A stretch of 45,181 nucleotides of DNA from Acidobacteriota bacterium (GCA_017860005.1 JAFNAE010000009.1:1-45181), one strand, 5' to 3'; counted from the first letter of the stretch, positions 3,136-38,427 are shown. Notes: a model not told the origin generated them from the sequence alone. Numbers and translations are program-made.

Positions 3136-4671
3136 TCAGCGCGCCGGCGGCAGGCGCAACGCGCCCCATTCGCCCGACTCGGGGTCCTCGACCAGGGCGA
3201 GCGCCGGCTCGGGTGCGCGCGCGACGCCGGAGGGCTGCGCGTCCGGCAGTGTGGCGCATGCCTCGGCAGGAAAGGGACGGACCTCGACCACGGGGCCGAC
3301 CGCGACGGCGTCCGCAGCCGCCTCCGCGCTCAGGGTCGCGGCGCGCACGAACTCGTGCGTCGTGGGTCCGGAGAAGCAGACGCGGCGCGCGGGCGGCAGA
3401 GAGTCGTCGGCAACGGTGCGCACGAGCGCCCCGAGCTCCACGTCGAGATCGCCTGCGGCGAGCGCGCGCAACCGCGCGGCCGTCGCTTCGGGCGGCATCC
3501 CCGAGCGCGACCAGCGCCGCGCGGGCAGCGCTCTGCCGTCGCCCCCCGTCCAGCGCACTTCGAGCGGCAACATGCGGCCGGGCCCCGGATCCGGCGAGCG
3601 CACCACGAGCCGGCGGCGATTCGCGAGGCGCTCCATCTGGGAGGCGACCGCGGCGGCGTCGGCGAGCAGGGTGCCGGCGCCGGCGCGCACGAAGTGCGCC
3701 CACGGGCGCAGTCCGAGGTCGGTCGCCACGCTGAGCCTCGCCTCGTCGCGCGCCGCGCCGCGCAGGTAGTGGCGCGGGGCGAAGAGCCGCACCATCCAGC
3801 TGCTGCTCTCCCTGCCGCCCGAGTTGATGCGCGTCGCGGGGCGCCGATCGGGGCCCGGTCGGACCTCCGAGTCGAGCGGGACCACCGCGGAGAGCACGTA
3901 GGTGGTCCAGCCGAACGCGGCGGCGACACGCGCGGCGTCCTCGATGGGCCGCAGTTGCGCGAGGACGGGACCGTCGCCTCCGCGCCCGAGGTCGGCGAGG
4001 GCGTTGAGCAGGTCCGCGTTGACCGCCCAGGCGTCACCGACCACGACGAGGGCGCGCCGCCCGCCGCCGTCGCGGCTGGCGAGCGCCACCGTGAGCCGGT
4101 CGAGAGCGCGCAGGCGCACCTCGAGCGGTGAGCGGCCCGCCGCGGGCGCCGAATCCCATTCGGGGGCGCGACGGGCGAGCAGCGCGGCGAGGGCGGCCGG
4201 GCTGGCGACCGGTGCCTCCCGTCCGGAGCCCTCGACCGCGAGCGTGATCGGAACGCAGGCCGGGACCGCCGCCATCGTCGCCGCCCGGGCGAGCGAGCGC
4301 GCACCCTCGGCGCGCGCCCGCGGGCTCGCGAGCGCGGGGTCGAACCAGACCAGGAGCTCGAGGATCGGGCACGGCCCTCCGCCCGGCTCCCGCTCGTCGC
4401 CGTCATCCTCCGCGTCGCCTGCGGGCGTCGCGACCTGCTCCAGCGGGCGGCCGTCTTCGAGCACCAGGAAGTCCCGGTCGGCGCGGCGGCCGAGCGACTC
4501 GAGCGGGGGCAGGACCGAGGCATCGAAGTCGACCTCCAGCTCGCGCACCACGACTTCCTCTCGATAGGGCGCCAGCGCGCTGCCGCGGCCCGGGCCCGCG
4601 GCGCCGGCGACCGGGACGGCGATCGCCCAGGCGACCAGCGCGGAGACGACCGGCGACCTCGCGTGGGACAT
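3136..4671 (-). CDS. VWFA-related domain secreted protein
   Basis: In-frame part of ORF 3136..5412 from MSHARSPVVSALVAWAIAVPVAGAAG (signal-peptide like). Contains FLVLEDGRPLEQVA, a degenerate VWA-like core (ILELLVWFDPALASPRARAEGARSLARAATM) and RRALVVVGDAW, as in VWFA-related proteins. Upstream part of the ORF is antisense/shifted relative to the USP gene and not supported. Confidence 0.7.
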   Translation of the reverse strand: MSHARSPVVSALVAWAIAVPVAGAAGPGRGSALAPYREEVVVRELEVDFDASVLPPLESLGRRADRDFLVLEDGRPLEQVATPAGDAEDDGDEREPGGGPCPILELLVWFDPALASPRARAEGARSLARAATMAAVPACVPITLAVEGSGREAPVASPAALAALLARRAPEWDSAPAAGRSPLEVRLRALDRLTVALASRDGGGRRALVVVGDAWAVNADLLNALADLGRGGDGPVLAQLRPIEDAARVAAAFGWTTYVLSAVVPLDSEVRPGPDRRPATRINSGGRESSSWMVRLFAPRHYLRGAARDEARLSVATDLGLRPWAHFVRAGAGTLLADAAAVASQMERLANRRRLVVRSPDPGPGRMLPLEVRWTGGDGRALPARRWSRSGMPPEATAARLRALAAGDLDVELGALVRTVADDSLPPARRVCFSGPTTHEFVRAATLSAEAAADAVAVGPVVEVRPFPAEACATLPDAQPSGVARAPEPALALVEDPESGEWGALRLPPAR

Positions 4672-4736
4672 GCCTGGAGACTCGAGCAAGCCGGATGCCG
4701 GGCCCCCCTTCGGCCCGGGCGCTCGCGCGCGGTCCC

Positions 4737-5492
4737 TCAGTGCGCGAGCAGGACCGGGCAGGGGGCGAGCTGGAGGAGCTTGTCCGAGACGCTGCCGGTG
4801 AGCAGATCCTCCCAGGCGGACTGCCCGCGCCGGCCGGCGGTGATCAGGTCGGCTGCCCCGGCCAGGTCGCGCACGACGTCCTCCTCGTCGATGCCGGCGC
4901 CGTCGGCGGCCGCCTCGCGCACCCGCACCGCCAGCACTTCCGCCGTGGGTGCCCACTCGGCGAGGGCCGCCACGGCGGCGCGCGCCGGCGCCGACCCGTC
5001 CAGCGCCGCGAGCACGAGGCGCGGTGGCGAGGGCCTCGTCTCGCCGCGCACGACCACGACCGGCACGGGCGCGCGCCGCGCCACCGCTGCCGAGACGCTG
5101 CCGAGCACCAGGTGAGAGGCGCCGCTGCCGTGTCGCCCGACCACGACCAGCCCGGCGCCCTGGCTCTGGGCGTGCTCGATCAGCGTCTCGACGGGCAGCC
5201 AGCGGCGCAGGTGGATCTCCACCGGGAGGCCTTCGGCGGCCAACAGGTCGCGCTCGGCTTCGAGCCGCTCGCGCATCTCGCGCTCGTGGCGCCCGAGCAG
5301 TTCCCCCACGCTCAGGTGGTCGTAGCCGTGGTGCGGGATGGCGGGAAGGGCGAGCGCGTGGACGAGGTGCAGGGCGCGGCCGCCCCGGGCGCGCGCCAGC
5401 GCGGCAGCCCACGCCGCGGCGCGGCGCGCGTCGGGCGAGCCGTCGAAGCCGACCACCACGGGCGAGGGAGCGGGCGAGCGGTCCTCCTGCAC
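4737..5492 (-). CDS. Universal stress protein, tandem UspA domains
   Basis: 251 aa: PVVVGFDGSPDARRAAAWAAALA...LVVVGRHGSGASHLVLGSVSAAVARRAPVPVVVVRG... and a second domain ending LLTGSVSDKLLQLAPCPVLLAH. Confidence 0.9.
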   Translation of the reverse strand: MQEDRSPAPSPVVVGFDGSPDARRAAAWAAALARARGGRALHLVHALALPAIPHHGYDHLSVGELLGRHEREMRERLEAERDLLAAEGLPVEIHLRRWLPVETLIEHAQSQGAGLVVVGRHGSGASHLVLGSVSAAVARRAPVPVVVVRGETRPSPPRLVLAALDGSAPARAAVAALAEWAPTAEVLAVRVREAAADGAGIDEEDVVRDLAGAADLITAGRRGQSAWEDLLTGSVSDKLLQLAPCPVLLAH

Positions 5493-21473: not shown

Positions 21474-22905
21474 GCGAGCCGCGACCCGTCGTACCGCGCG
21501 TGCGCGAGTTGCTCGCGGAGACGCTCACGCCGTTGGCCGCCTACCAGCGCCTGGCCGGGATCTCGCCGGTGCGCTTCCTGTTCGAGAGCGTGACCGGGGG
21601 CGAGCGCGTGGCGCGCTTCAGCTTCCTCGGCGCCGGCCCGCGCGCGCTCCTGCGCCTGGCTCCGGACGCGCTCGAGATCGAGCGCGGCGGCGTGCGCGAG
21701 CGGATCCCCGGGCCGCCGCTCGAGGCCCTGAGAGCGCAGGTCTCGGGCTTCGCGGCGGCGCGCGGGCCGGTGCCCTTCTCCGGTGGCTTCGTGGGCACCT
21801 TCGGCTTCGACCTCGTGCGCCTGATCGAGCGCCTCCCGGGCCGGCCGCCCGACCCCTGGCGGCTGCCGGTGGCGGTGCTCGGCCTGTTCGACGCCGTGGT
21901 CGCCTTCGACCACGCCGAGCAGAAGCTGCTGCTGATCGCCAACGAGATCGAGGGCGAGACCGGCGCCGGCGACGCCGAGGCGGCGCTCGACCGGCTCGAG
22001 GCGGCGTTGTCGAGCCCGTTGCCGGCGCGCGCGGTGCGCCTGCCCGAGCGGCCGCCGCCGCCCGTCGCGCCGGACTCGGTGAGCCTCTCCGGCGAGGCCT
22101 TCCAGCACGCGGTGCGCGTCGCCAAGGAGCACATCGCGGCGGGCGACATCTTCCAGGTCGTCCTCGCGCGCCGTGCGACGAAGCGCACCGCGGCCTCGCC
22201 GGTAGCGCTCTATCGCGCCCTGCGCCGGATCAACCCGAGCCCCTACATGGTCCTGCTCGAGCTGCCCGAGGGGGCGCTGGTCGGCGCCTCGCCCGAGGCC
22301 CTGGTGCGCAAGGACGGCGCGCGCGTGACGACGCGCCCGATCGCAGGCACCCGCCGGCGTGGCGCCGACGCCGCCGCAGACGAGCGGCTCGCCGCGGAGC
22401 TGCTCGCCGATCCCAAGGAGCGCGCCGAGCACGTCATGCTGGTCGACCTCGGCCGCAACGACCTCGGCCGGGTCTGCCGCCCGGGCAGCGTGCGCGTCGC
22501 CTCGTTCCTCGAAATCGAGCGCTACAGCCACGTGCTGCACCTGGTCTCCGCGGTCGAGGGCGAGCTCGCGCCCGGGCGCGACGCGCTCGACACGCTGCTC
22601 GCCGCTTTCCCGGCCGGCACCGTCTCGGGCGCGCCCAAGCTGCGCGCGATCGAGATCCTGGACGCGCTCGAGCCCGAGGCGCGCGGCTTCTACGCGGGCG
22701 CCACCGGTTACCTGTCCTTCGCCGGCGACCTCGACACCTGCATCACGATCCGCACCCTGTTCGCGCACGCGGGCGAGGTGGCGGTGACCGCCGGCGCGGG
22801 CATCGTCGCCGACTCGGACCCCGCGCTCGAGCTCCAGGAGACCGAGAACAAGGCGGCCGCGCTGCTGGCCGCCGTGGCGCTCGCCGAGGAGCTGGAGGCG
22901 CGCGC

Positions 22906-22909
<4 letters not shown>
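21470..22909 (+). CDS. trpE: Anthranilate synthase component I
   Basis: ATG at 21470 overlaps the aroDE stop (ATGA). ...AKEHIAAGDIFQVVLARR...RRINPSPYMVLLELPEGALVGASPEALVRKDGARVTTRPIAGTRRRG...HVMLVDLGRNDLGRV...AFPAGTVSGAPKLRAIEI. Confidence 0.96.
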
Positions 22910-23492
<583 letters not shown>

Positions 23493-23496
<4 letters not shown>

Positions 23497-24500
23497 GCGA
23501 ATCGGCGATCCTGGCCCGGCTGATCGCGCGCGAGGACCTCGCGGGCGCCGAGGTCGAGGCGCTGATCGGCCGCATCGTCGACGGGCGCGTTCCCGACTCG
23601 CTGGTCGCCGCCCTGCTCGCGGCGCTCGCCACCAAGGGCGAGACCGCCGGCGAGATCGCGGGCGCGGCGCGCGCCCTGCGCGCGCGCGTGCGCGCGGTTT
23701 CGCACCGTTGCTCACGGGTTCTCGACACCTGCGGCACCGGCGGCGACGGCCGCGGCACCTTCAACGTCTCGACCGCGGCGGCGTTCGTCGCCGCTGCCGG
23801 CGGCGCGGTGGTGGCCAAGCACGGCAACCGCGCGATCTCCTCACGCTCGGGCAGCGCCGACGTGCTGGCCGCGCTGGGCGTCGCGATCGAGGTCGAGCCC
23901 GAGGTCTCGGCGCGCCAGCTCGAGTCGCTCGGGCTGGCCTTCCTGTTCGCGCCCCTCCACCATCCCGCCATGAGGGCGGTGGCGCCGGTGCGCCGCGCGC
24001 TCGGCGTGCGCACGGTGTTCAACCTGCTCGGTCCGCTCTCCAACCCGGCGGGCGCGCGCCGCCAGCTGCTGGGCGTCTACGCCGCCGACCGGGTCGAGCC
24101 GGTGGCGCGCGTGCTCGCCGAGCTGGGCAGCGAGCACGCGCTGGTCGTGCACGGCCGCGACGGCCTGGACGAGATCACCACCACGGCCCCGACCCTGGTC
24201 GCCGAGGTGCGGGCCGACGGCATCCGCAGCTACGAGATTGCGCCCGCCGACCTCGGCCTCCCCGTGGCGCGCCTCGACCAGCTCGCCGGCGGCACGCCCG
24301 AGGAGAACGCGCGCCGCCTGGAGCAGGTGCTCGAGGGCGGCCATGGCGCGCTCGGCGACCTGGTGGCCGCCAACGCCGGCGCCGCGCTCTACGTCGCAGG
24401 CCTGGCGCCGACCCTGCGCGCGGGCGTCGACGGTGCGCGCGCCATCCTCGCCTCCGGCGCGGCGCGCGACCGGCTCGAGCAGCTGAGGTCGTTCCGGTGA
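23493..24500 (+). CDS. trpD: Anthranilate phosphoribosyltransferase
   Basis: Likely TTG start overlapping the trpG stop (TTGA). DTCGTGGDGRGTFNVSTAAAFVAAAGGAVVAKHGNRAISSRSGSADVLAALG...VFNLLGPLSNPAGA. Confidence 0.94.
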
Positions 24501-24516
24501 GCGGCCGGGAGCCTGC

Positions 24517-25305
24517 GTGACGGTGCCGGACGTGCTCTCGCGCATCGTCGAGGCGCGGCGCCGGCGCTACGCGCCGGCCGCGGGCGGCGAGCTCGCCGCG
24601 CCCCTGGCGCGGGAGCGCGCGGCCGTGCTTCCCCCCACCCATCCCTTCCTGGCCGCGCTCGCGGCGCGCGCCGGACGGGCGGCGATCGCGGAGGTCAAGA
24701 TGGGGTCGCCGCGGCTGGGCTCGCTCGCCGGGCGCTTCGATCCCCTCCGGCAGGCCGCCGCCTACGCCGCCGCGGGCGCCGCCGCGCTCTCGGTCGTGGT
24801 CGAGCCCGACTTCTTCTTCGGCTCGTGGGAGCTGCTCGCGCGCTGCCGGGCGGCGAGCGGCCTGCCCGCGATCGCCAAGGACTTCGTGGTCTCGGAGCGG
24901 CAGCTCGACCAGGCGCGCGAAGCGGGTGCCTCGGCGATCCTGCTCGTCGGCGCGCTCTACTCCGGCGACGAGCTCGGGGCCTGGGCGGGCGCGGCGCGCG
25001 AGCGCGGCCTGGCGCCCCTGGTCGAGCTCCACGACGAGGCCGACCTCGCCCGGCTCGCCGGCGCCGCCTGGGAGCTGGTCGGGGTCAACCACCGCGACCT
25101 GCGCACCTTCGAAGTGGACTTCGAGCGCGGCGCGCTCCTGGCGCCGCGCCTGCCGGCCGGCGCGCTCAAGGTCGCGGAGAGCGGCATCGCCCGGCGCGCC
25201 GACGTCGAGCGCCTCGCCGCGGCCGGCTTCGACGCCTTCCTGGTGGGCGAGAGCCTGCTGCTCGCCGAAGATCCGGGCGCCAGGCTCGGGGAGCTGTTCG
25301 GATGA
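24517..25305 (+). CDS. trpC: Indole-3-glycerol phosphate synthase
   Basis: IAEVKMGSPRLGSLAGRFDPLRQAAAYAAAGAAALSVVVEPDFFFGSWELL...IAKDFVVSERQLDQAREAGASAILLV...LVGVNHRDLRTFEVD...AESGIARRADVERL. Confidence 0.95.
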   Translation: MTVPDVLSRIVEARRRRYAPAAGGELAAPLARERAAVLPPTHPFLAALAARAGRAAIAEVKMGSPRLGSLAGRFDPLRQAAAYAAAGAAALSVVVEPDFFFGSWELLARCRAASGLPAIAKDFVVSERQLDQAREAGASAILLVGALYSGDELGAWAGAARERGLAPLVELHDEADLARLAGAAWELVGVNHRDLRTFEVDFERGALLAPRLPAGALKVAESGIARRADVERLAAAGFDAFLVGESLLLAEDPGARLGELFG

Positions 25306-26039
25306 CCGGCGCGATCCACCCGCGGCCCACGGTCAAGATCTGCGGCGTCACGCGCCCGGAGGACGCCGCGCTGGCGGCCCGGCTGGGCGCCGACCTGATC
25401 GGGATCAACTTCTGGCCGCGCTCGCCGCGCTGGGTGGCCGACCCGATCCGGGCACGGGAGATCGTCGCCGCGGCGCGCGCGACGAGCGCGCCGGTCGGGG
25501 CCGTCCGGGTCGTGGGCGTGTTCGTGAACGAGGCGCCCGCAGCCATCGAGGAGCGGATCGAGTCGGCCGGGCTCGACCTCGTGCAGCTCCACGGCGACGA
25601 GCCGGACGAGCTGCTCGACCGCTTCGCCCCGCGCGCGCTGCGGGCGCTCCGGGCCCGAGCGGCGGGCGCGGCGCCGGTGGCTTCCGGCGGCGCCGAGGTA
25701 CCGGAGAGCCACGACCGGAACGGCCCGCACCCCCTTCAATGGCAGTCGTTCGAACCGGATCGCCGCCTCGTCGCCTGGATCCTCGACGCCCCCGCAGGCG
25801 CGCGCTACGGCGGCACCGGCGAGGCCTGGGACTGGTCCCAGGCGCGCGCGCTGGTGGCGGCGGCGGCCTCGCCGGTGCTGATCGCGGGCGGCCTGCGGCC
25901 CGGCCTGGCGCGCGCCGCGCTCGCGGCGTCGGGCGCGGCCGGGGTCGACGTCGCCTCCGGGGTGGAGTCGGCGCCGGGCGTGAAGGATGCTGAGAGAATG
26001 CGGCGGTTGATCGAGGAGGTGCGCGTTGAAGTGGGCTAG
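25302..26039 (+). CDS. trpF: Phosphoribosylanthranilate isomerase
   Basis: ATGA overlap with trp[36 protein letters not shown]...LVQLHGDEP...[16 protein letters not shown]...LIAGGLRPG...[20 protein letters not shown]. Confidence 0.95.
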
Positions 26040-27258
26040 GAACCGACGCGGGTGGCCCGACCGGGCGGGCCGGTTCGGCGGCTACGGCGGGCGTTACGTG
26101 CCGGAGACGCTGATGGCGCCGCTCGAGGAGCTCGCGCGCGCCTATGACCACGCCCGCCGCGACCGTGCCTTCAAGCGGCGCCTGGACGACCTGCTGGCGA
26201 GCTACGCGGGCCGGCCGACGCCGCTGTGGCCCGCGGAGCGGCTCTCGCACGAGGTCGGCGGCGCGCGCATCGTGCTCAAGCGCGAGGACCTGCTGCACAC
26301 CGGCGCGCACAAGCTCAACAACGCGCTCGGACAGGCGCTGCTCACGCGCGCCATGAAGAAGGACCGCGTGGTGGCCGAGACCGGGGCCGGCCAGCACGGC
26401 GTCGCCACCGCGACCGCGGCGGCGCTGCTCGGGCTCGAGGCCACGGTCTACATGGGCACCGAGGACATGCGCAGGCAGCATGTGAACGTCGAGCGCATGC
26501 GCCTGCTCGGAGCCGAGGTGGTGGGCGTGGAGTCGGGCTCGCGCACGCTCAAGGACGCCATCAACGAGGCGCTGCGCGACTGGGTGACCAACGTGCGCAC
26601 CACCCACTACCTGCTCGGCTCGGTGCTCGGCCCCGATCCCTTCCCGCGCATGGTGCGCGACTTCCAGCGCGTGATCGGCGAGGAGGCCCGCGTCCAGCTC
26701 CGGCGCCGCTACGGCCGGCGCTCACCCGACCTCGCGGTCGCCTGCGTGGGCGGCGGCTCGAACGCCATCGGCCTGTTCTCGGCCTTCCTCGGCGATCCGC
26801 ACGTGCGCCTGATCGGCGTCGAGGCGGGCGGGCGCGGCCACCGGCCCGGCGAGCACGCCGCGCGCTTCGGTGGCGGGGGAGCGGCGGTGGGAGTCCTGCA
26901 CGGGACCCGGACGCGTGTGCTCCAGGACGCGGAGGGTCAGATCGCCGCCACGCACTCGGTGTCGGCCGGCCTCGACTATCCGGCGGTGGGTCCGGAGCAC
27001 GCGGCGCTGGCCGAGCTCGGGCGCATCGAGTACACCTCGGCCACCGACCGCGAGGCGGTGGCGGCGTTCCACCTGCTCGCCGAGACCGAGGGCATCCTGC
27101 CTGCGCTCGAGAGCGCGCACGCGGTGGCCGAGGCGGTCCGGCGCGCGCGCCGCCTGTCGCGCCGCGCGCTCGTGCTGGTCAATCTCTCGGGGCGCGGCGA
27201 CAAGGACCTCGAGTCGGTGCTGGCCTACGACCGCGCGCGCGCGGAGGCCGCGCCGTGA
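26026..27258 (+). CDS. trpB: Tryptophan synthase beta chain
   Basis: [22 protein letters not shown]...[29 protein letters not shown]...[21 protein letters not shown]...[12 protein letters not shown]...[12 protein letters not shown]. Confidence 0.97.
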
Positions 27259-28067
27259 GCGGACGTGGCGCGCTCGCCGCGGCCTTCGCCGCCGCGCGAC
27301 GCGAGGACCGTGCCGCCTTCGTGCCGTTCCTGATGGCGGGCGATCCCACCCTCGAAAGGACGGGCGAGCTGGTGGGCGCGCTCGCCGGCGCGGGCGCCGA
27401 CGTGATCGAGCTCGGCGTGCCGTTCTCCGACCCGATCGCCGACGGGCCGGTCAACCAGGCCGCCGCGGAGCGTGCCCTGGCGGCCGGCACCCGGCTCGCG
27501 GGTATCCTCGAGCTGGTCTCGCGGATCCGGCGGCGCGTGGAGGCGCCGATCGTGCTCTTCAGCTACTTCAACCCCATCCTGCGCTACGGCCCGGCGCGCT
27601 TCGCGGAGCACGCGTCGGCGTCGGGCGTGGACGGCCTCCTGTGCGTCGACCTGCCGCCCGAAGAGGCGGCGGCGGAGGTGCTTCCTGCCCTGCGCGCGCA
27701 GCGGCTCGACCCCGTCTTCCTGCTCGCGCCGACCTCGACCCGCGAGCGCGTCCGGGCCGTGGCGCGCGCGGGATCCGGCTTCGTCTACTACGTCTCGCGC
27801 ACCGGCGTCACGGGCGAGCGCGCGGCGCTGCCCGCCGGGCTGGCGAGCGAGGTCCGGGCGCTGCGCCGCGCGCTGGACCTGCCGGTCGCGGTGGGCTTCG
27901 GACTCTCGACTCCGGAGCAGGTCGCGGCGGTGGCGCGCGTCGCCGACGGCGCCGTGGTGGGCAGCGCGCTGGTGCGCTTCGCCGCCGAGCACGCGGGCGA
28001 GCCGGACCTGCTGCCGCTCTTCGCCCGGCGCGCGGCCCGGCTCGCCGCCGCGACCCGCCGCGGCTGA
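27255..28067 (+). CDS. trpA: Tryptophan synthase alpha chain
   Basis: GTGA overlap with trp[47 protein letters not shown]...[11 protein letters not shown]...[18 protein letters not shown]...[15 protein letters not shown]. Confidence 0.96.
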
Positions 28068-29506: not shown

Positions 29507-31105
29507 TCAGGGCGCGACCGCCTCCGAGCTCCCGCCCATGCCCCGGCGCGCCGCCGCCACCGCGGCCGCGCAGAGGCCGCAGACGGCAGCGAAGGCGGCC
29601 AGGCCGACGAGGCCGACCCAGTCGCCGATCTCGCGCGGCAGCAGCAGCTCTCCTAGCGGGGTGGCGAGATCGAACGCCGCGCCCGGCGTGGCGCGCATCG
29701 TCTTGATCGCCGCCATGGCGGCGAGCAGGAGCGCGCCGCCGGCCAGGGCCACGCAACCGGCGACCACGCCACGCGCGGCGAGCGCGCCGCGGCCGAGCGG
29801 CGGTCCGACGACCCTGCCGTGCTCGACGGCGAGGGCCGGCTCGCGGGTCCCGATCGGAACGAAGCGCGCGAGCAGCACGAGGCCGGGGATGCCTGCGAGC
29901 ATGGTCAGCCAGAAGAAGCTGGTCCAGCCCATGGCGTCGGCGGCGAAGCCGCTGATCGGGCCGGTGAGCAGGCGCGGGATGCCGAACAGGCTCGACAGCA
30001 GGGCGTACTGGGTCGCCGAGAAGCGTTTCTCGGTCAGGCGCAGCAGCAGCACCAGGAAGGCGCCGGTGCCCAGCCCCTGGGTGAAGCTTTCGAAGCCCAT
30101 GGCGCCGTACATGAGCGGCCGGTTGACCGCGCTCTCCGCGACCAGGATGTAGCCGACGTTGGACAGGATCTGGATGACGCCGAAGAGCCAGAGCGCGCGC
30201 CCGAGCCCGAGCGAGGTGGTGAGCACGCCCCCGAGCAGCGCCCCGACCGAGGTCGCGACCGCCCCGGCGGTGCCGAGCGCGACGCCGCGGTCGAACGCGG
30301 AGTAGCCGAGGTCGACCAGGAAGGGGCGGAGCAGCGCCTGCGCCAGGTTGTCGGCGAGCTTGTAGAAGAGCACGAAGAGCAGGATCTCGAGCGCGCGATG
30401 GCGGGCGAGGATGCCGAGGAACGGCTCCCACACCGCCGCCCGCAGGGTGCGGGGAGCGACCACCGCCTCCTCGGGCTCGGGCGCGCGCAGGGTGACGAAG
30501 AGGAAGGGCAGGTGCGCGACCGCGAGCACCACGAGCACCACCGGCCACGACCAGCGCGCCGCGAAGGTGATGGCGATGGCGCCGGCGAGGTACATCGCCG
30601 CGCGGTAGAGCGCGATCTTGGCGCCCACCGCCGGCCCCTGCTCCTCGGGCCGCAGGACGTCGACCGTGTAGGCGTCGTAGGCGATGTCGTAGGTCGCCGA
30701 GGTGAAGGCGATGGCGAGCGCCAGCACCCCGACCACCCAGGGCGCCTCGGGGTGCGAGCCGACGCCGGCCAGGGCCAGCGTGGTGGCGAAGAGCGCGACC
30801 TGCGCGATCACGATCCAGCCGCGGCGACGCCCCAGGAAGGGCGGCACCCAGCGGTCCATGACCGGCGACCAGAGGAACTTGAACGTCCACGGGGCCTGGG
30901 CGAGCGTGATCAGGCCGACCACCCGCAAGTCGACCCCGGTCGAGCGCATCCAGTCCGGGATCGCGATCCAGACCAGGCCGAGCGGCATCCCGGAGGAGAA
31001 GGAGAGCAGGGCGACCGAGGCCGTCCGCCAGGACGTCATCGCGACGCGCAGGCTCGCCCACATGCCGGGCCGGCGCGGCGGCGACTGCGGCGGATCGCTC
31101 GGCAT
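29507..31105 (-). CDS. ampG: MFS transporter of the AmpG type
   Basis: FSSGMPLGLVWIAIPDWMRSTGVDLRVVGLITLAQAPWTFKFLWSPVMDRWVPPFLGRRRGWIVIAQVALF...; 12-TM-like hydrophobicity. Substrate not determined. Confidence 0.75.
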   Translation of the reverse strand: MPSDPPQSPPRRPGMWASLRVAMTSWRTASVALLSFSSGMPLGLVWIAIPDWMRSTGVDLRVVGLITLAQAPWTFKFLWSPVMDRWVPPFLGRRRGWIVIAQVALFATTLALAGVGSHPEAPWVVGVLALAIAFTSATYDIAYDAYTVDVLRPEEQGPAVGAKIALYRAAMYLAGAIAITFAARWSWPVVLVVLAVAHLPFLFVTLRAPEPEEAVVAPRTLRAAVWEPFLGILARHRALEILLFVLFYKLADNLAQALLRPFLVDLGYSAFDRGVALGTAGAVATSVGALLGGVLTTSLGLGRALWLFGVIQILSNVGYILVAESAVNRPLMYGAMGFESFTQGLGTGAFLVLLLRLTEKRFSATQYALLSSLFGIPRLLTGPISGFAADAMGWTSFFWLTMLAGIPGLVLLARFVPIGTREPALAVEHGRVVGPPLGRGALAARGVVAGCVALAGGALLLAAMAAIKTMRATPGAAFDLATPLGELLLPREIGDWVGLVGLAAFAAVCGLCAAAVAAARRGMGGSSEAVAP

Positions 31106-31401: not shown

Positions 31402-33342
31402 TCAGGTCCGGGCGGTGTCGGCCCGCTTCGGTTTCTTGTCCTCGCGCGGCTTCGGCTCGACCACCGCTGCGGTGCGCTCGAGCATGCGGCCGGGGGCCTC
31501 GCGGCCGGTCAGGAAGGTGGTGTCGAGCGGGTAGACGAGCGGATCGAAGATCACGAAGTAGAAGTGCCAGACCACGATGGCCAGGGTCGCCAGCACGGCC
31601 TCGTAGAAGTGCACCACGGTGGCGACGTCGCTCGCCCACTTGGGCAGGTTGGCGAGGCTCCAGTTCTCGAACCAGAGGATGAAGCCGGTGACCGCCATGA
31701 CCAGCGTGCCCCAGACCAGCGCCAGGTACTCCGCCTTCTCGGCGTAACCGAGCGGCGGCGACTGCGGCATCTCGACGCGCTTGCCGAAGAACCACATCAG
31801 CTTCTCGCGCAGCTCGTGCACGTCGTGCAGGGTCGGCAGCATGTTCTTGATGCAGGCGCGCGCGCGGCGATCGAGGGCGATGTGGACGGCGTGAAAGGCG
31901 AACGCCGCGAGCATCACCAGGGCGGCGCCGCGGTGGAGCCAGCCGCGGACGGTGAAGCTCGCCTCCCAGGCGAGCAGGGGGCGGGCCCACCATCCCTCGG
32001 GGTACTTGAGCGCAAAGCCGCTCCAGACCAGCGCGATGAAGCTGGTCAGCAGCAGCCCGTGCGCGATGCGGAAGCCCCCCGACATGCGCCGCCGGCGGGC
32101 CGCGATCGGCACGATCGGGCGCGTGAACGGCGTGCGCGCCTTGCGCCGGAGGTCGAGCAGGTTGTGGAGAGCCATGCCGCCGATGGTCAGCCAGATCAGC
32201 CAGAGGTAGGCGTTGCGCACCCAGTAGACGGCCGGATGGGCGGTCTCCTTGTCGCCGGGAAGCACGTGCACTTCACCGATCGCGAAGCTCGCCCCCGCCC
32301 CGGGGTGGCAGTTGCCGCAGGTCGCCGCCAGGTTGGCCGGCGCGATGTGCGAGCGCGGGTCGGAGGAGGGCAGGATGTCGTGCACGCCGTGGCAAGAGGC
32401 GCAGTTGGCGACGGTGACGCTGCCGGAGCGGCCGGCGAGGCCGTGGAAGCTGTCCTCGAACGCCGTGACCGCGGTATCCGTGAGGCCGAACTTCTCGGTC
32501 ACGCGCAGGTCGCCGTGGCAGCGTCCGCAGGTCATCTTGGGCACGTTGGAGGCGAACACCGGCGAGCCCTTGTCGGCGGGGCCCAGGATGCGATGCTCGC
32601 CGTGGCAGTCGGAGCACACGGGAGACTCGCCGATGCCGCGCGCCGCGGCCTGGCCGTGGACGCTGTCCGCGAAGGTGGCCGAGATCTCGGCGTGGCATTC
32701 GGCGCAGGTGGATGGGACGTTCGCCCGGTTGACGCGCGAGGCGGGGTCCTCGCCCGGACGGATGTCGTGGCTGCCGTGGCAGGAGCTGCAGGTGGCGGCG
32801 TGCTCGCCGGCCGCAACGGCGCGCGCGTGGACGCTCGCCTCGTAGGCCGCGATCGGCTGCACCAGCCGGATGCCCTCCTTGGCGCCCATCTCGGGGTCCG
32901 AGTGGCAGGCCCCGCAGGTGGTGGCGAGCCGGGTCGGGTGCACCGGCGAAGCGGCGTCGTCGCGCGCGCGCAGCGCGTGCGTGGGCCCGTGGCAGGAGGT
33001 GCAGCCCGGGTGCTTGAGGTCGGGCGCGTCGGGGCGGCCGTGGACGCTCGTCGCCAGCCCCTCGGTGATGTCGGAGTGGCAGCTCGCGCACGAAGCGCGC
33101 GCATCAGCGGCCGGATGCGGGTAGTCCTCGTGCCCGGCGTGGCAGTCGGCGCAGGCGATGCCCGCCTGGCCGTGCACGGTCGCCTCCCAAGCGGCGGCCT
33201 GGACCACGAGGGCGGCGTCGCCGACGTTGTCCTCCGTGTCGTGGCAGGACAGGCACTCCTCGGCGGCGGCGAGCGCCGCCGGAGCGGCCAGGAGCGCGGC
33301 CACCAGGCCGCACAACAGGATCCATCTGCGAGGGTGCGCCAT
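31402..33342 (-). CDS. Multiheme c-type cytochrome (11 CXXCH) fused to C-terminal b-type cytochrome membrane domain
   Basis: From MAHPRRWILLCGLVAALLAAPAALAAAEECLSCHD. CXXCH motifs counted: CLSCH, CADCH, CASCH, CTSCH, CGACH, CSSCH, CAECH, CSDCH, CGRCH, CASCH, CGNCH. The C-terminus (FRIAHGLLLTSFIALVWSGFALKYPEGWW...WLHRGAALVMLAAFAFHAVHIALDRRA...VVHFYEAVLATLAIVVWHFYFVIFDP) is FdnI/HydC-like. Confidence 0.92.
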   Translation of the reverse strand: MAHPRRWILLCGLVAALLAAPAALAAAEECLSCHDTEDNVGDAALVVQAAAWEATVHGQAGIACADCHAGHEDYPHPAADARASCASCHSDITEGLATSVHGRPDAPDLKHPGCTSCHGPTHALRARDDAASPVHPTRLATTCGACHSDPEMGAKEGIRLVQPIAAYEASVHARAVAAGEHAATCSSCHGSHDIRPGEDPASRVNRANVPSTCAECHAEISATFADSVHGQAAARGIGESPVCSDCHGEHRILGPADKGSPVFASNVPKMTCGRCHGDLRVTEKFGLTDTAVTAFEDSFHGLAGRSGSVTVANCASCHGVHDILPSSDPRSHIAPANLAATCGNCHPGAGASFAIGEVHVLPGDKETAHPAVYWVRNAYLWLIWLTIGGMALHNLLDLRRKARTPFTRPIVPIAARRRRMSGGFRIAHGLLLTSFIALVWSGFALKYPEGWWARPLLAWEASFTVRGWLHRGAALVMLAAFAFHAVHIALDRRARACIKNMLPTLHDVHELREKLMWFFGKRVEMPQSPPLGYAEKAEYLALVWGTLVMAVTGFILWFENWSLANLPKWASDVATVVHFYEAVLATLAIVVWHFYFVIFDPLVYPLDTTFLTGREAPGRMLERTAAVVEPKPREDKKPKRADTART

Positions 33343-33395
33343 GATTGCCTCCCTGTCGCGAGCGCGGCGTTCCGCGCCGGGTGCGTCGCTCCGGC

Positions 33396-36362
33396 TCAGC
33401 GATACCCGAACAACATGGCGTACACGATCAGCACGATCAGCGTCAGCCCGATGGCGAGCGCGACGAAGCCGAAGACCCGGGCCGCCCGTTCGGCCTCGCT
33501 CGGGATCGGCCCCACCAGGTGCTCCTCGAGCTGCCCGGTGCGCACCAGCTCGGCGTACTCGTCCGGCTTGTCGTGCTGCAGCTCCTCGACGGTCATGCGC
33601 CCGGTGAAGATGACCGGATCCATCGGGAACTTGTCGGGCCGGAAGTGCGTGTTGAAGAAGTGGATCGTGAAGATGAAACCGACCGCGAGCAGCGCTTCGT
33701 CGCTGTGCACGATCGTCGCCACGTTGATGGACCAGCCGGGCAGGATGCGCGTGAGCAGCTCGGGGAACCAGAGCACGAACCCCGTCGAGCCGATCACCAT
33801 CACGCCCCAGAACACCGCGAAATAGTCGAACTTCTCCCAATACGTGTACCGCCCGTACGACGGCCGCGGACCGCGGCCGAAGAACCACTTCATCGAGCCC
33901 CACACGTCGCCGAGGTCGCGCGGGTGGAACAGAATCGTGTCGGGTCCGGCCAGCAGCTGCCGCCAGGTCCTCCCCGCTGCGCGCCGCCGCCGGTTCACGT
34001 CCCAGACATGGACGGCGAACACCGCGATCAGCACGAGCGCGGCCAGTCGGTGCAGCACCGCCATGGTCGGCTGGCCGCCGAACAGGCGCGCGATGACCTG
34101 CGCCCACCCCGCGTAGGAGAACTTGATCGCCATCCCGGACAGCGCGAGCGTGAAGAAGGAGAGCAGCATGAAGAGGTGCTGGAGGCGCTGGAAGCGGGTG
34201 AAGCGGCGGTAGAGCTTCTCGTGACCGGCCAGCCGCGCCGCGGCCTTGACGTGACGCCACTGGTCGTGGGTGCGCCAGAGCCGGATCAGCCACGCCAGCG
34301 TGTGCAGCAGCGCGAAGAAGAGCGTGCCGACGAGCAGCGCGGTCATGAACCGGAACGACCAGAACAGCCAGGGGAAGCGGTCGCGGTCGTGGTGGGTGGC
34401 GTGGGTGAGGTAGCCCGCGAAGCGCCGGTTCGAGCCCGGATGGCACTGGGCGCAGGTGGCGACCACGTTGGCGCGGCTGAGCGTGGAATCGGGGTTCGAG
34501 GTGGGCAGGATCTGATGGCTGCCGTGGCAGTCCGAGCACTTGGCGGCACCCTCGGTGCCGAGCATGGAGACCTTGCCGTGGAAAGTCTCGAAGAAGGTCT
34601 CGGCCTCCTCGGTGTGGCACTGGCCGCACTGCTCCATCATTCGCGTGCGGAAACCGGGCAGGTCGGCGCGCGCGATCGAGTGCGAGCTGTGGCAGTCCTC
34701 GCACACCGGCAGGCGCTTGCCGTCCTTCGGCTCTCCGGTAGCGTGGATGCTCTTGGCGAACGCCTCGGCGACGCCATGGTGGCACAGGCCGCAGGTGGCG
34801 GGCAGGTTGGCGGGGTTCACGGACGACTTCGGGTCGTCGGGCGGCAGCTCGCCGTGCGAGGTGTGGCAGTTCACGCACGTGGCGGTCACCACCAGGCCGC
34901 TCTGGGTGAGGCCCTTGCCGTGGATCGAGTCGGCGTAGCTGGCGACGATGTCGGGCACCTCGGCGTGGATGCGGACCGCGGCCTTCTCGCCCGCTCGGTG
35001 GCAGCGGGCGCACAGGGCCGGCACGTTGCGCGCGAAGGTGGGGGAGGTCGGCAGCCGCTTGCTCTGGGTGGCGTGCTGCGAGTGGCAGTCGAGACAGCCC
35101 GGCGCGTCGCCGTCGCCCTCGGCGGCCAGCCGGCCATGGATGCTCGACTGGTACTGGTCGACCTGGGCGGCGTGGCAGACGCCGCACTGGACGGGAGTGC
35201 GGATCGTCTCGCACGGCCGGTCGTGCGAGGGCGCCACCTCGCTGTGACACTGGGCGCAGGCGATCTTGGCGTGGGCGGCGTTCTCGTAGGCGACTGGATC
35301 CACGAACAGCGAATGGCTGGCTCCGTCCCGCTCGACCGCGAAGTCTGGCTTGCCGTGGCAGGTCAGGCAGTCCCGGTTGGCCATCCCCGCTTCGTAGAAC
35401 ACCTTGCGCACCTTGTGCGGCTGGTGGCATTCCACGCACACCGGGACGCGATGCGGCTCGTTCTCCCAGAGCTTGCCGTCGATGACCTTGCGGTGCACCT
35501 CCTCGATCTGCGCGTGGCACTGCGTGCAGGTCGCGACGATACTGCCCTGGCTGATGCTCGACTTCGGGTCGGTGTGCGGCAGGATGTGGTGCGGCGTGTG
35601 GCACGACGTGCACACCGCGGTGACCGTGAGCCCCTTCTTGTACAGGCCCTCGCCGTGGATCGAATCGACGTAGTTCTCGAGGATGCTCTGCTGCGGGATG
35701 TCCCGGAACTGCGAGACGGGCGTCCCCTCCTTGTGGCACTGGCCGCACAGGAGGGGGACGTTCATCACCGCGGTCGGGGCCTTGGGGTCGCGGTGCGGCG
35801 CGATGTCGTGGGCGTGATGGCAGGTGACGCAGGTGGGGGCGAGCCTGTCGCCGCGCGCTGCCGCACGCCCGTGCAGGCTCTCGTGCTGCTGGGCCGCGAC
35901 TTCGCCGTGACAGACGTCGCAAGCGGCGAGCGCCTCCGCGCCGCGCACCATCAGGTGGGGGCGGTGGCAGTCGGCGCACCCGGCTGCAACGCCCTCGCCC
36001 GCGTTCCGGGCGTGGGCGCCCCTGCGCCAGCGCGCGGCCTCGCCGTCGTGGCACGAGGCGCAGTCGACCGGCGCCGCGTCGTCGCCGTGCCCGTCGCCCT
36101 GGCCGGTGAGGTCCTGGTGACAGTCGACGCAGGCGAGCTGCGCGTGAGCGGAGCCGGCGTACTTCTCGCCGTCCACGAAGGCCGAGATCTCGCGCCCCGC
36201 GCGGGTCGCGGTCAGGCTGTCGTCGGCGTGGCAGCCGAGGCAGTCCTCGGCGCTCTGGGCGCCGGCCGGCGCGGCGAGCGCCGCGGCGAGGGCGAAGGCG
36301 GCGAACGCCGCGCGGCGGAGCCCGGCGACGTGGCGGCGGTCGATCAGGGGCGGCGCGCTCAC
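33396..36362 (-). CDS. Large multiheme c-type cytochrome (21 CXXCH) fused to C-terminal b-type cytochrome membrane domain
   Basis: GTG at 36362 overlaps the upstream stop (GTGA). 988 aa; 21 CXXCH motifs counted from CLGCH to CAQCH. C-terminal b domain RFQRLQHLFMLLSFFTLALSGMAIKF...LHRLAALVLIAVFAVHVWD...VHSDEALLAVGFIFTIHFFNTHFRPDKFPMD. Confidence 0.92.
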   Translation of the reverse strand: MSAPPLIDRRHVAGLRRAAFAAFALAAALAAPAGAQSAEDCLGCHADDSLTATRAGREISAFVDGEKYAGSAHAQLACVDCHQDLTGQGDGHGDDAAPVDCASCHDGEAARWRRGAHARNAGEGVAAGCADCHRPHLMVRGAEALAACDVCHGEVAAQQHESLHGRAAARGDRLAPTCVTCHHAHDIAPHRDPKAPTAVMNVPLLCGQCHKEGTPVSQFRDIPQQSILENYVDSIHGEGLYKKGLTVTAVCTSCHTPHHILPHTDPKSSISQGSIVATCTQCHAQIEEVHRKVIDGKLWENEPHRVPVCVECHQPHKVRKVFYEAGMANRDCLTCHGKPDFAVERDGASHSLFVDPVAYENAAHAKIACAQCHSEVAPSHDRPCETIRTPVQCGVCHAAQVDQYQSSIHGRLAAEGDGDAPGCLDCHSQHATQSKRLPTSPTFARNVPALCARCHRAGEKAAVRIHAEVPDIVASYADSIHGKGLTQSGLVVTATCVNCHTSHGELPPDDPKSSVNPANLPATCGLCHHGVAEAFAKSIHATGEPKDGKRLPVCEDCHSSHSIARADLPGFRTRMMEQCGQCHTEEAETFFETFHGKVSMLGTEGAAKCSDCHGSHQILPTSNPDSTLSRANVVATCAQCHPGSNRRFAGYLTHATHHDRDRFPWLFWSFRFMTALLVGTLFFALLHTLAWLIRLWRTHDQWRHVKAAARLAGHEKLYRRFTRFQRLQHLFMLLSFFTLALSGMAIKFSYAGWAQVIARLFGGQPTMAVLHRLAALVLIAVFAVHVWDVNRRRRAAGRTWRQLLAGPDTILFHPRDLGDVWGSMKWFFGRGPRPSYGRYTYWEKFDYFAVFWGVMVIGSTGFVLWFPELLTRILPGWSINVATIVHSDEALLAVGFIFTIHFFNTHFRPDKFPMDPVIFTGRMTVEELQHDKPDEYAELVRTGQLEEHLVGPIPSEAERAARVFGFVALAIGLTLIVLIVYAMLFGYR

Positions 36363-37765
36363 GGGGACAGCGTGCGCAGGATCTCTGGATCCTGCTCCTC
36401 TTCGGCGAGCAGCGAGTGGCAGGTTTCGCAGTCCTGCGAGATCGTGCGGCCGCTCTTCGAGGTGTGCTGGTCGTCGTGGCAGCGCCAGCAGCCGGGCGCC
36501 TGCTCGTGCCCGATGTGGTTGGGGTAGGTTCCCCAGGTGACGCTCATCTGCGGAAAGACGTTCGAGGACCACCCTTCGAAGAGCGCCGCCGCGGCGGCGT
36601 CGAGATCGGCGGCGCGGCCGCGCGCGACCTCGGGGTAGCCGGCGGCGTAGAAGCTCTCCAGCCCGGCGCGGATGCCGGCGCGCGCCGCGCCCGCGTCGGC
36701 GTACTCGGCCCGGATCAGCTTCAGACCCTCGCGGCGGACGAAGGGCAGGTCGCGCGCGATGGCGCCGGCCTGCAGGGCGCGGTCGACCTCCTGCTCGGGA
36801 GAGTGGAAGGTATGGCTGGGCCGGTTGTGGCAGTCCACGCAGTCCATCTGACGCCAGGTGCCCGCGCTCGCCTTCTCGCCCTCGTCGGCTCCCGGCGCGA
36901 ACCAGCGCTCGACCTCGCCGCCGGGTCCGGTGAGCTCGACCTCGTGGATCTCCTCGCGCGACTCGTCGGAGCGGTAGCGGATCCGGTTGGCGGGATCGAC
37001 GTGCCAGTGGATGCCTTTCGAGACCCGTCCCTCGATGCCGCCCACGCGCATCAGCAGCACCGTCTTCTTCTCGGTGTTCGCCTCGTCCTCGGCGTACTTG
37101 GTGACCACCTTGAGCCGGTCGCCGACGAACTTCTGCGGCCAATGGCACTGCTCGCAGGTCTCGCGCGCAGGGCGCAGGCTGTGGACCGGGGTCGGGATGG
37201 GGCGCGGATAGAGGTCGAGGTTGACCGAGACCACCTGCCAGGAGCCGGAGAGCTTGGACTTCACGAACCAGCCCGCGCCCGGGCCGATGTGGCATTCGAC
37301 GCAGCTCACGGAGGCGTGCGCGCCGCGCTTCAGCGCGGTGTGCTCGGGTGCCATCACCGAGTGGCACGCCTCGCCGCAGAAGGCGGTGGTGTCCATGACT
37401 TCGACCGCCTTGTAGCTCGCCACCGCCACGATCACGACGTTCAGCGTGGTGAGGACGACGAAGACCAGGAACCGGTTGCGGACGACCTCGCGGTTGAAGT
37501 CGATGACCGGGAGCTCCGCTCCCGCGGGCGCGGCGCGCTTGCGCGCCTGGCGCAGGCCGATCGGGATGAGCAGGAGACCGGCGACGAAGATCGCCGGCAC
37601 GACCAGGTAGGTCAGGATGCCGACGTAGGGATGGCCGTGGAGTCCCGCCAGGTCGAGGGAGAAGAAGACCAGGAAGATGATGGCGGCCGCGGTGGTGATC
37701 GCGGTGCCGGCGAGGCTCAACGGATGCCTCATCAGCAGGCCGAAGAACGACTTCAGCTTGAGCAC
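36359..37765 (-). CDS. NapC/NirT-family-like membrane-anchored multiheme cytochrome (5 CXXCH + 1 CX3CH)
   Basis: From GTG 37765: VLKLKSFFGLLMRHPLSLAGTAITTAAAIIFLVFFSLDL...; AFCGEACHSVMAPEHTALKRGAHASVSCVECHIGPGAGWFVKSKLSGSWQV...RPARETCEQCHWPQKF...DCVDCHNRPSH...CWRCHDD...CETCHSLL. Confidence 0.9.
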   Translation of the reverse strand: MLKLKSFFGLLMRHPLSLAGTAITTAAAIIFLVFFSLDLAGLHGHPYVGILTYLVVPAIFVAGLLLIPIGLRQARKRAAPAGAELPVIDFNREVVRNRFLVFVVLTTLNVVIVAVASYKAVEVMDTTAFCGEACHSVMAPEHTALKRGAHASVSCVECHIGPGAGWFVKSKLSGSWQVVSVNLDLYPRPIPTPVHSLRPARETCEQCHWPQKFVGDRLKVVTKYAEDEANTEKKTVLLMRVGGIEGRVSKGIHWHVDPANRIRYRSDESREEIHEVELTGPGGEVERWFAPGADEGEKASAGTWRQMDCVDCHNRPSHTFHSPEQEVDRALQAGAIARDLPFVRREGLKLIRAEYADAGAARAGIRAGLESFYAAGYPEVARGRAADLDAAAAALFEGWSSNVFPQMSVTWGTYPNHIGHEQAPGCWRCHDDQHTSKSGRTISQDCETCHSLLAEEEQDPEILRTLSP

Positions 37766-37873
37766 TCGGATCCCCCCCTTGTTCGCCGGCGGCGGCTGCG
37801 GGTCTCGGGTTCCCGGCGGCACGCTGCCGGCGAGCGCGTCCGCAGCGCATTGTAAGGGCCGCGCGAAAGCGCT

Positions 37874-37897
37874 CCCGCCACCCCGGCGGGTGGCGGG
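37874..37897. promoter_or_regulatory. Perfect 10-bp inverted repeat with tetraloop between the cytochrome operon and a USP gene
   Basis: CCCGCCACCC-CGGC-GGGTGGCGGG in the 188-bp divergent intergenic region. Confidence 0.5.
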
Positions 37898-37953
37898 CGA
37901 GGCGCCGCCGGGAGGCAAGCTGGGCGGCGGGGGAGTCGCGAGGAGGTCCCGCC

Positions 37954-38427
37954 GTGTTCGACCGCATCCTGGTGCCCGTCGACCTGACCGACAAGAACGC
38001 CGCCGCGGTCGCGCGCGCGCTCGCGCTCGCCTCGCCGGGCGCGGAGATCGTGCTGCTCCACGTCATCGAGCGCATCGAGGACGACGCCGCCGAGCTCGAG
38101 GCGTTCTACCGCCGGCTGGAGGGCCGGGCGCGGGCCGGCCTGGACGGGCTGGCGGCGCGTGTCGCGCGCTCGGGGCGCCGGGCGCGCACCGAGGTCGTGG
38201 TCGGCCGGCGCGTGGAGGAGATCGTCGAGGCGGCGGCCCGGCTCGCCTGCGACCTGGTGGTGCTCACCTCGCACACGATAGAGCGAGGGGCCCCCGGGCG
38301 CGACTGGCTGACGATCAGCTACCGGGTCGCGCTGCTCGCGCCCTGCTCGGTGCTGCTGGTCAGGTCGCGCAAGCCGCCATCTCGCGCGCGATCACCCCGC
38401 CGAGCCGGCGCACGCCCTCCTCGATGA
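37954..38427 (+). CDS. Universal stress protein (single UspA domain)
   Basis: GTG start: MFDRILVPVDLTDKNAAAVARALALASPGAEIVLLHVIERIED...ACDLVVLTSHTIERGAPGRDWLTISYRVALLAPCSVLLVRS. Confidence 0.88.
   Translation: MFDRILVPVDLTDKNAAAVARALALASPGAEIVLLHVIERIEDDAAELEAFYRRLEGRARAGLDGLAARVARSGRRARTEVVVGRRVEEIVEAAARLACDLVVLTSHTIERGAPGRDWLTISYRVALLAPCSVLLVRSRKPPSRARSPRRAGARPPR

Follow-up and report, generated by a model that had tools for sequence, protein, structure and literature searches.

What is the role of a locus that encodes three adjacent multiheme cytochromes with 38 predicted c-type heme motifs in total? This locus lies in a stretch of 45,181 nucleotides from an Acidobacteriota bacterium (GCA_017860005.1, JAFNAE010000009.1:1-45181; hereafter, the window), which is contig C130 of genome G000 (3.28 Mb, 319 contigs, 90.2% complete). 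It consists of three genes (genes 1 to 3; Table 1), one for a cytochrome of the ImcH type and two for CbcL-type fusions of a multiheme c domain to a b-type cytochrome domain. The operon probably encodes three inner-membrane quinol:periplasm oxidoreductases, one ImcH-type and two CbcL-type, that feed extracellular electron transfer (EET). The observations that bear on this proposal are the architecture of the proteins, their conserved ligands, the recurrent clustering of the genes and the adjacency of MtrAB or MtrCAB genes in relatives.

An earlier reading of this DNA from the sequence alone (the sequence-only reading) had described three co-directional cytochrome genes on the minus strand, and its coordinates, strands, lengths and motif counts all proved correct on recount. 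The overlap of genes 1 and 2 by GTGA and the 53-bp gap between genes 2 and 3 were likewise found in the sequence, and the three genes are probably co-transcribed. Composition-preserving shuffles yield a mean of 0.01, 0.12 and 0.05 CXXCH motifs per protein for genes 1, 2 and 3, respectively, with a maximum of 2, and a scan of all frames detects zero CXXCH in the remaining frames of the 45-kb window.

Homologs of ImcH have been described as proteins with three N-terminal transmembrane (TM) motifs, an adjoining atypical CX3CH motif, and 5-9 CX2CH motifs (PMC6295460). The product of gene 1 contains three hydrophobic segments at the N-terminus, which correspond to helices 15-39, 46-78 and 93-124 in the predicted model, followed by the CX3CH motif, in which C130, G131, C134 and H135 are invariant across 16 relatives. 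Because the three N-terminal TM helices, the adjoining CX3CH and the five CX2CH motifs match the published description, gene 1 is assigned to the ImcH type; by sequence, it displays every architectural feature listed. The label "NapC-like" given in the sequence-only reading captures a partial similarity and is otherwise too plain: the NapC/NirT domain (PF03264) is detected with 25.5 bits (cut-off 24.1) in residues 99-178 only, that is, in TM3 and the first hemes, and the best match in the Protein Data Bank (PDB) for this region is NrfH (2J7A_C). A plain NapC/NirT or NrfH label was dropped given the extra TM helices, the C-terminal hemes, and a score of 40.9 bits for TIGR03153 (NrfH), far under the equivalog cut-off of 134.2. 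Gene 1 thus shares with ImcH of Geobacter sulfurreducens and its homologs the three TM helices, the membrane-adjoining CX3CH, a CX2CH count inside the range of 5-9 and the partial NapC/NirT similarity, but has 5 CX2CH (6 hemes) instead of 6 (7 hemes), the C-terminal heme being the missing one. Some relatives of this six-heme form contain one extra, seventh, C-terminal heme. A further difference from ImcH is the setting: gene 1 probably shares a transcript with two CbcL-type genes.

The products of genes 2 and 3 start with typical signal peptides, as judged from the sequence, and end in b-type domains, as had been claimed. For gene 3, the Ni_hydr_CYTB profile scores 45 bits (cut-off 30.1). Gene 2 remains under this cut-off, with 25.6 bits, but its b domain is accepted because of the profile and structure matches to FdnI. 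Searches of the PDB with profiles of the two b domains identify one credible relative each, namely FdnI, the cytochrome b (gamma) subunit of formate dehydrogenase-N (1KQF_C; E-values of 3.3e-5 for gene 2 and 1.1e-11 for gene 3), and a Foldseek search with the gene 2 model ranks 1KQF_C first (TMt 0.74, probability 1.00, E-value of 3.6e-3), a match that is convincing for the b domain only, the model being of modest confidence (pLDDT 64, pTM 0.42). Residues H18, H57, H155 and H169 of FdnI, its four b-heme ligands, align with H729, H771, H886 and H901 of gene 2 and with H428, H470, H578 and H593 of gene 3; all four are thus kept in both proteins, and they are 98-100% conserved in 86 relatives of gene 2 and 48 relatives of gene 3. 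In addition, YWEK, a family-specific motif of gene 2, aligns to what is presumably the quinone-site loop of FdnI. The earlier description of both proteins as quinone-linked inner-membrane c/b cytochromes of the CbcL type is supported: the sequence-only reading had named a lack of b-heme histidines as a reason to give up this role, and the histidines are conserved. The fold and the four heme ligands are common to FdnI and the two b domains, whereas FdnI, a quinone reductase in its native role, has no c domain and is a separate subunit, and genes 2 and 3 encode fusions.

All 86 proteins compared share 19 of the 21 heme motifs in the c domain of gene 2, and the two variable ones (motifs 3 and 4, Table 1) occur in the 21- and 23-heme forms; among 92 proteins of this type, 68 contain 19 motifs, 15 contain 21, and 7 contain 23. 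The c domains also contain conserved histidines outside the motifs, 21 in gene 2 (for the 19 core hemes) and 10 in gene 3 (for 11 hemes). In gene 2, this number would be enough to provide the second-side (bis-His) ligation of all 19 core hemes. The periplasmic domain of CbcL carries nine c hemes, all of them bis-His (PMC9129911). The 21-motif fusion had appeared unusual in the sequence-only reading, but the heme number by itself is not new, given that members of the CbcL family with 3-23 CX2CH motifs have been published (PMC6295460). Domain architecture and the published description place genes 2 and 3 among the CbcL/MtrH/MtoC-type fusions, with the characteristic N-terminal multiheme c domain and C-terminal FdnI/HydC-like di-heme b domain. 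The number of helices (six in most CbcL/MtrH/MtoC proteins, five in some) also agrees, with six of membrane length in the model of gene 2 and about five TM helices predicted from hydropathy in gene 3. Compared with the 9 c hemes of G. sulfurreducens CbcL, gene 2 has 21 and gene 3 has 11, and the two belong to separate clades while being adjacent genes. In three relatives (L066:9965-12892, L068:9860-12850 and L098:5011-7947), the gene 2 homolog occurs as two proteins, a c protein with 19 hemes and a b protein; either the fusion is not essential or the assemblies contain frameshifts.

Full-length relatives of gene 2 in genomes of the same class show 53-76% identity; among the matches listed (80 named records), identity over the best segment is 47-63% and at least 16 phyla are represented, most of the records being metagenome-assembled genomes in which single phylum assignments may be wrong. 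Geobacter is absent among the best 80 gene 2 loci, and a plasmid collection yields no match. A tree of the b domains separates the gene 2 and gene 3 types with 100/100 support. Because many phyla are found on each side of this split, the sequences indicate that genes 2 and 3 are old paralogs rather than products of a recent duplication. In both halves of the tree, copies from Gammaproteobacteria group beside those of Acidobacteriota, a pattern consistent with joint transfer of the two types.

Recurrence of the three genes was assessed in 47 loci in which gene 2 is flanked by 5 kb or more on either side, a sample picked for gene 2 and not random; genes in the relatives' loci were called with a fixed amino-acid model and a heme bonus (the DNA is 74% G+C). 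Within 6 kb of the gene 2 type, the 11-13-heme paralog (gene 3 type) is present in 33 of the 47 loci, imcH in 21, and both in 19. Neighbors located less than 500 bp away are mostly on the same strand as gene 2 (31/36 for the gene 3 type and 20/21 for the ImcH type). Over 22 loci, the three proteins have correlated pairwise distances (r of 0.64-0.79, with 0 of 2000 permutations as high), which is as expected under co-inheritance, with a contribution from shared species history. Thus, the earlier remark that two c/b fusions in tandem look unusual understated the case: the 11-heme and ~20-heme forms are ancient paralogs, found together again and again in many phyla and often accompanied by imcH. 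At some loci (e.g., L123:6430-8130, with similar clusters in L044 and L048), cytochromes of 567-668 amino acids with 17-21 hemes adjoin gene 2; the one in L123 has a NapC-like N-terminus.

How might such proteins work together? The nature of the donor as quinol, the direction of flow, the division of labor by potential and the acceptor are what we infer, as follows. Each of the three proteins would oxidize menaquinol, the ImcH-type protein at a NapC-like quinol site and the CbcL types at the FdnI-like b domain, from which electrons would pass via two b hemes. Chains of 6, 21 or 11 bis-His c hemes would then conduct the electrons into the periplasm, where carriers or an outer-membrane porin-cytochrome conduit would take them over. 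During EET in Geobacter, ImcH is needed at high and CbcL at low potential, i.e., for acceptors above about -0.1 V and for lower ones, respectively (PMC12307469, PMC9129911). By analogy, the two families in one transcription unit would cover acceptors of a wide range of redox potentials. Inner-membrane quinone oxidoreductases are counted among the best EET markers (PMC12977616). A more specific version of the scheme, which we regard as possible though unlikely, is that the ~20-heme CbcL type alone spans much of the periplasm as a membrane-anchored wire and docks directly with the outer-membrane conduit, with no diffusible shuttle needed, and that ImcH and the 11-heme paralog are its partners in one conserved inner-membrane EET module of many phyla.

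The same chain of hemes could be used in reverse, so that electrons would enter from outside the cell, from Fe(II) or another donor, and pass through the periplasmic hemes to quinone, in an MtoC-like manner. Profile matches (both b domains) and Foldseek (gene 2) point to the FdnI fold, which natively moves electrons from the periplasm to quinone. Homologs of CbcL/MtrH/MtoC have been found in Fe(II) oxidizers (PMC6295460), and the genome contains a match to the large subunit of RuBisCO (64 bits, G000:C310:9489-9953, within a 645-amino-acid frame). The latter match, however, is partial (160 of 299 positions) and possibly reflects a RuBisCO-like protein, and ImcH, which is encoded in the same operon, has so far been implicated only in quinol oxidation (PMC6295460); we therefore consider reverse flow improbable.

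Outward flow to an extracellular acceptor is the preferred reading, and the loci of same-genus and same-class relatives supply the outer-membrane part that it calls for. In the same-genus genome G002 (L121), imcH and the 11-heme gene are divergent from two adjoining genes, one for a DmsE/MtrA decaheme protein (255 bits for TIGR03508; cut-off 192.2) and one for MtrB/PioB (323 bits for PF11854; cut-off 23). The MtrA-MtrB/PioB pair again adjoins one or both of imcH and the 11-heme gene in L122 and L138 (TIGR03508 scores for MtrA of L121 and L122 are 250-255 bits), and L129 and L134 have, in the same position, MtrA, the barrel and a gene of the MtrC/OmcA family (392 bits in L129 and 452 bits in L134; cut-off 209.3). 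All 3 of the other same-genus genomes encode MtrB. The sequence-only reading had noted that the window contains no porin or outer-membrane conduit; such a conduit does adjoin imcH and/or the 11-heme gene in relatives, but none is detected genome-wide here. Several results weigh against the proposed role in EET: in the window's own genome (90% complete, 319 contigs), neither MtrB/PioB (PF11854) nor MtrA or MtrC (TIGR03508, TIGR03507) is found over the curated cut-offs; the G002 locus that contains mtrBA is missing gene 2; and the predicted structure of gene 1 (AlphaFold, pLDDT 70.6) gave insignificant matches only in a structure search.

The failure to detect an Mtr-type conduit in this genome is compatible with another possibility, that the operon supplies a periplasmic soluble reductase or cytochrome oxidase and that the many hemes store charge or provide branch points in the periplasm. 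Candidates for the acceptor are an NrfA-family nitrite reductase on contig C86 (PF02335, 463 bits) and ActB- and oxidase-like genes on contig C284, recognized from sequence only. However, a gene for NrfH (TIGR03153, 161.5 bits, cut-off 134.2) lies directly upstream of the NrfA gene, so that NrfA has a partner of its own and does not need the operon; on these grounds, the idea that the module feeds NrfA was rejected. Furthermore, genes of the module recur beside porin-cytochrome conduits in relatives, and no soluble terminal reductase gene was recognized beside the module at the loci examined, where most neighbors are unannotated. We judge this alternative to be improbable. The NrfH/NrfA pair itself is located at L185 (C86):3538-5500, and its NrfA contains five CXXCH and zero CXXCK motifs.

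In G002, mtrB, mtrA and a gene for a monoheme cytochrome lie between a universal stress protein (USP) gene and imcH, and in G003 the USP gene likewise flanks mtrB. In the window, the USP gene directly adjoins imcH, which suggests that mtrAB is missing at this locus; it may have been lost or may reside elsewhere, in the missing tenth of the genome. Related MFS transporter and peptidase genes trail the cytochrome genes in G001 and G002 as well. The lack of mtrB-mtrA between the USP gene and imcH would also fit a relic, with an inner-membrane module that is redundant or decaying after loss of the conduit in this lineage. However, none of the three reading frames is disrupted, all heme motifs and ligands are retained, and contig C238 encodes a candidate alternative conduit; we consider a relic very improbable. 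That contig (L166) encodes a 20-heme cytochrome (3340-5034) and a 512-amino-acid protein that ends in GIELGYRF, an outer-membrane-type signature; the latter has no Pfam match and occurs in 14 of the 40 genomes searched, including this one, G001 and G003. The two proteins are a possible conduit of another kind. The next gene (L166 (C238):5034-7844) encodes a 937-amino-acid protein with 19 CXXCH motifs, about 4 TM segments, a 4Fe-4S domain, and an FAD/NAD(P) oxidoreductase domain (PF13738, 143 bits), so that, as predicted from sequence, the group looks like a flavin-linked porin-cytochrome cluster.

The components belong to families known from metal-breathing bacteria, and some proximity of the genes has precedents. 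In Desulfuromonas soudanensis, homologs of ImcH and CbcL are encoded near each other (DSOUD_0207, DSOUD_0214; PMC4914508), and in D. acetexigens, their accessions are consecutive (TRO80643.1, TRO80642.1; PMC12133095); the accessible portions of these reports describe neither a second, long CbcL-type gene nor a three-gene unit. The three-gene module with a 21-heme member appears to be undescribed as a unit, and neither its recurrence nor its MtrAB neighborhood was found in the open-access literature, a scope that does not extend to subscription papers and supplementary tables. With its invariant 19-heme core, the module would serve as an EET marker in uncultured groups, candidates being Acidobacteriota, Gemmatimonadota, Zixibacteria and Hydrogenedentota, and it raises the question whether high- and low-potential quinol oxidases are packaged in one operon. 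ImcH, first known from Geobacter, is tied to the Mtr conduit by the MtrAB genes that adjoin imcH in relatives, an arrangement unseen in a 2018 survey, which reported no mtrAB next to imcH (PMC6295460).

Table 1. Positions in the window of the cytochrome genes, their predicted domains and motifs, and flanking features
Feature	Position	Strand	Remarks
Gene 1, ImcH-type cytochrome	36359-37765	-	468 amino acids; 5 CXXCH + 1 CX3CH
Gene 2, long CbcL-type c/b fusion	33396-36362	-	988 amino acids; 21 CXXCH, signal peptide, C-terminal b domain
Gene 3, short CbcL-type c/b fusion	31402-33342	-	646 amino acids + stop; 11 CXXCH, signal peptide, b domain
Atypical CX3CH of gene 1 (CGEACH, residue 130)	37361-37378	-	directly after TM3
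Heme motif 3 of gene 2 (CASCH)	36048-36062	-	kept in only 26% of relatives
Heme motif 4 of gene 2 (CADCH)	35964-35978	-	kept in only 26% of relatives
b-type domain of gene 2 (residues ~662-988)	33399-34379	-	six membrane-length helices in model
b-type domain of gene 3	31405-32250	-	four histidines aligned to FdnI
Divergent intergenic region	37766-37953		188 bp, between gene 1 and the USP gene
Universal stress protein (Usp, 70 bits)	37954-38427	+	context marker, outside the module
MFS transporter, downstream	29507-31063	-	context, outside the module

Elsewhere in the genome, contig C92 (L164:4886-10913) encodes a fusion of cytochrome b (PF00033, 160 bits) with a c domain of 8 hemes at its C-terminus, in a cluster that also includes Rieske, NrfD, ferredoxin-type and 4-heme genes, as in a bc-like complex with a multiheme c subunit. 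Sets of Rieske, cytochrome b and 9-11-heme genes that resemble this cluster adjoin the module in L048, L060, L067 and L118. Contig C12 (L163:171-3242) encodes a 1024-amino-acid protein with about 8 heme motifs and HEAT and TPR repeats, beside a Rieske protein. Within the window, genes that by eye resemble a complete tryptophan operon, trpE/G/D/C/F/B/A, occupy positions 21500-28064 on the plus strand.

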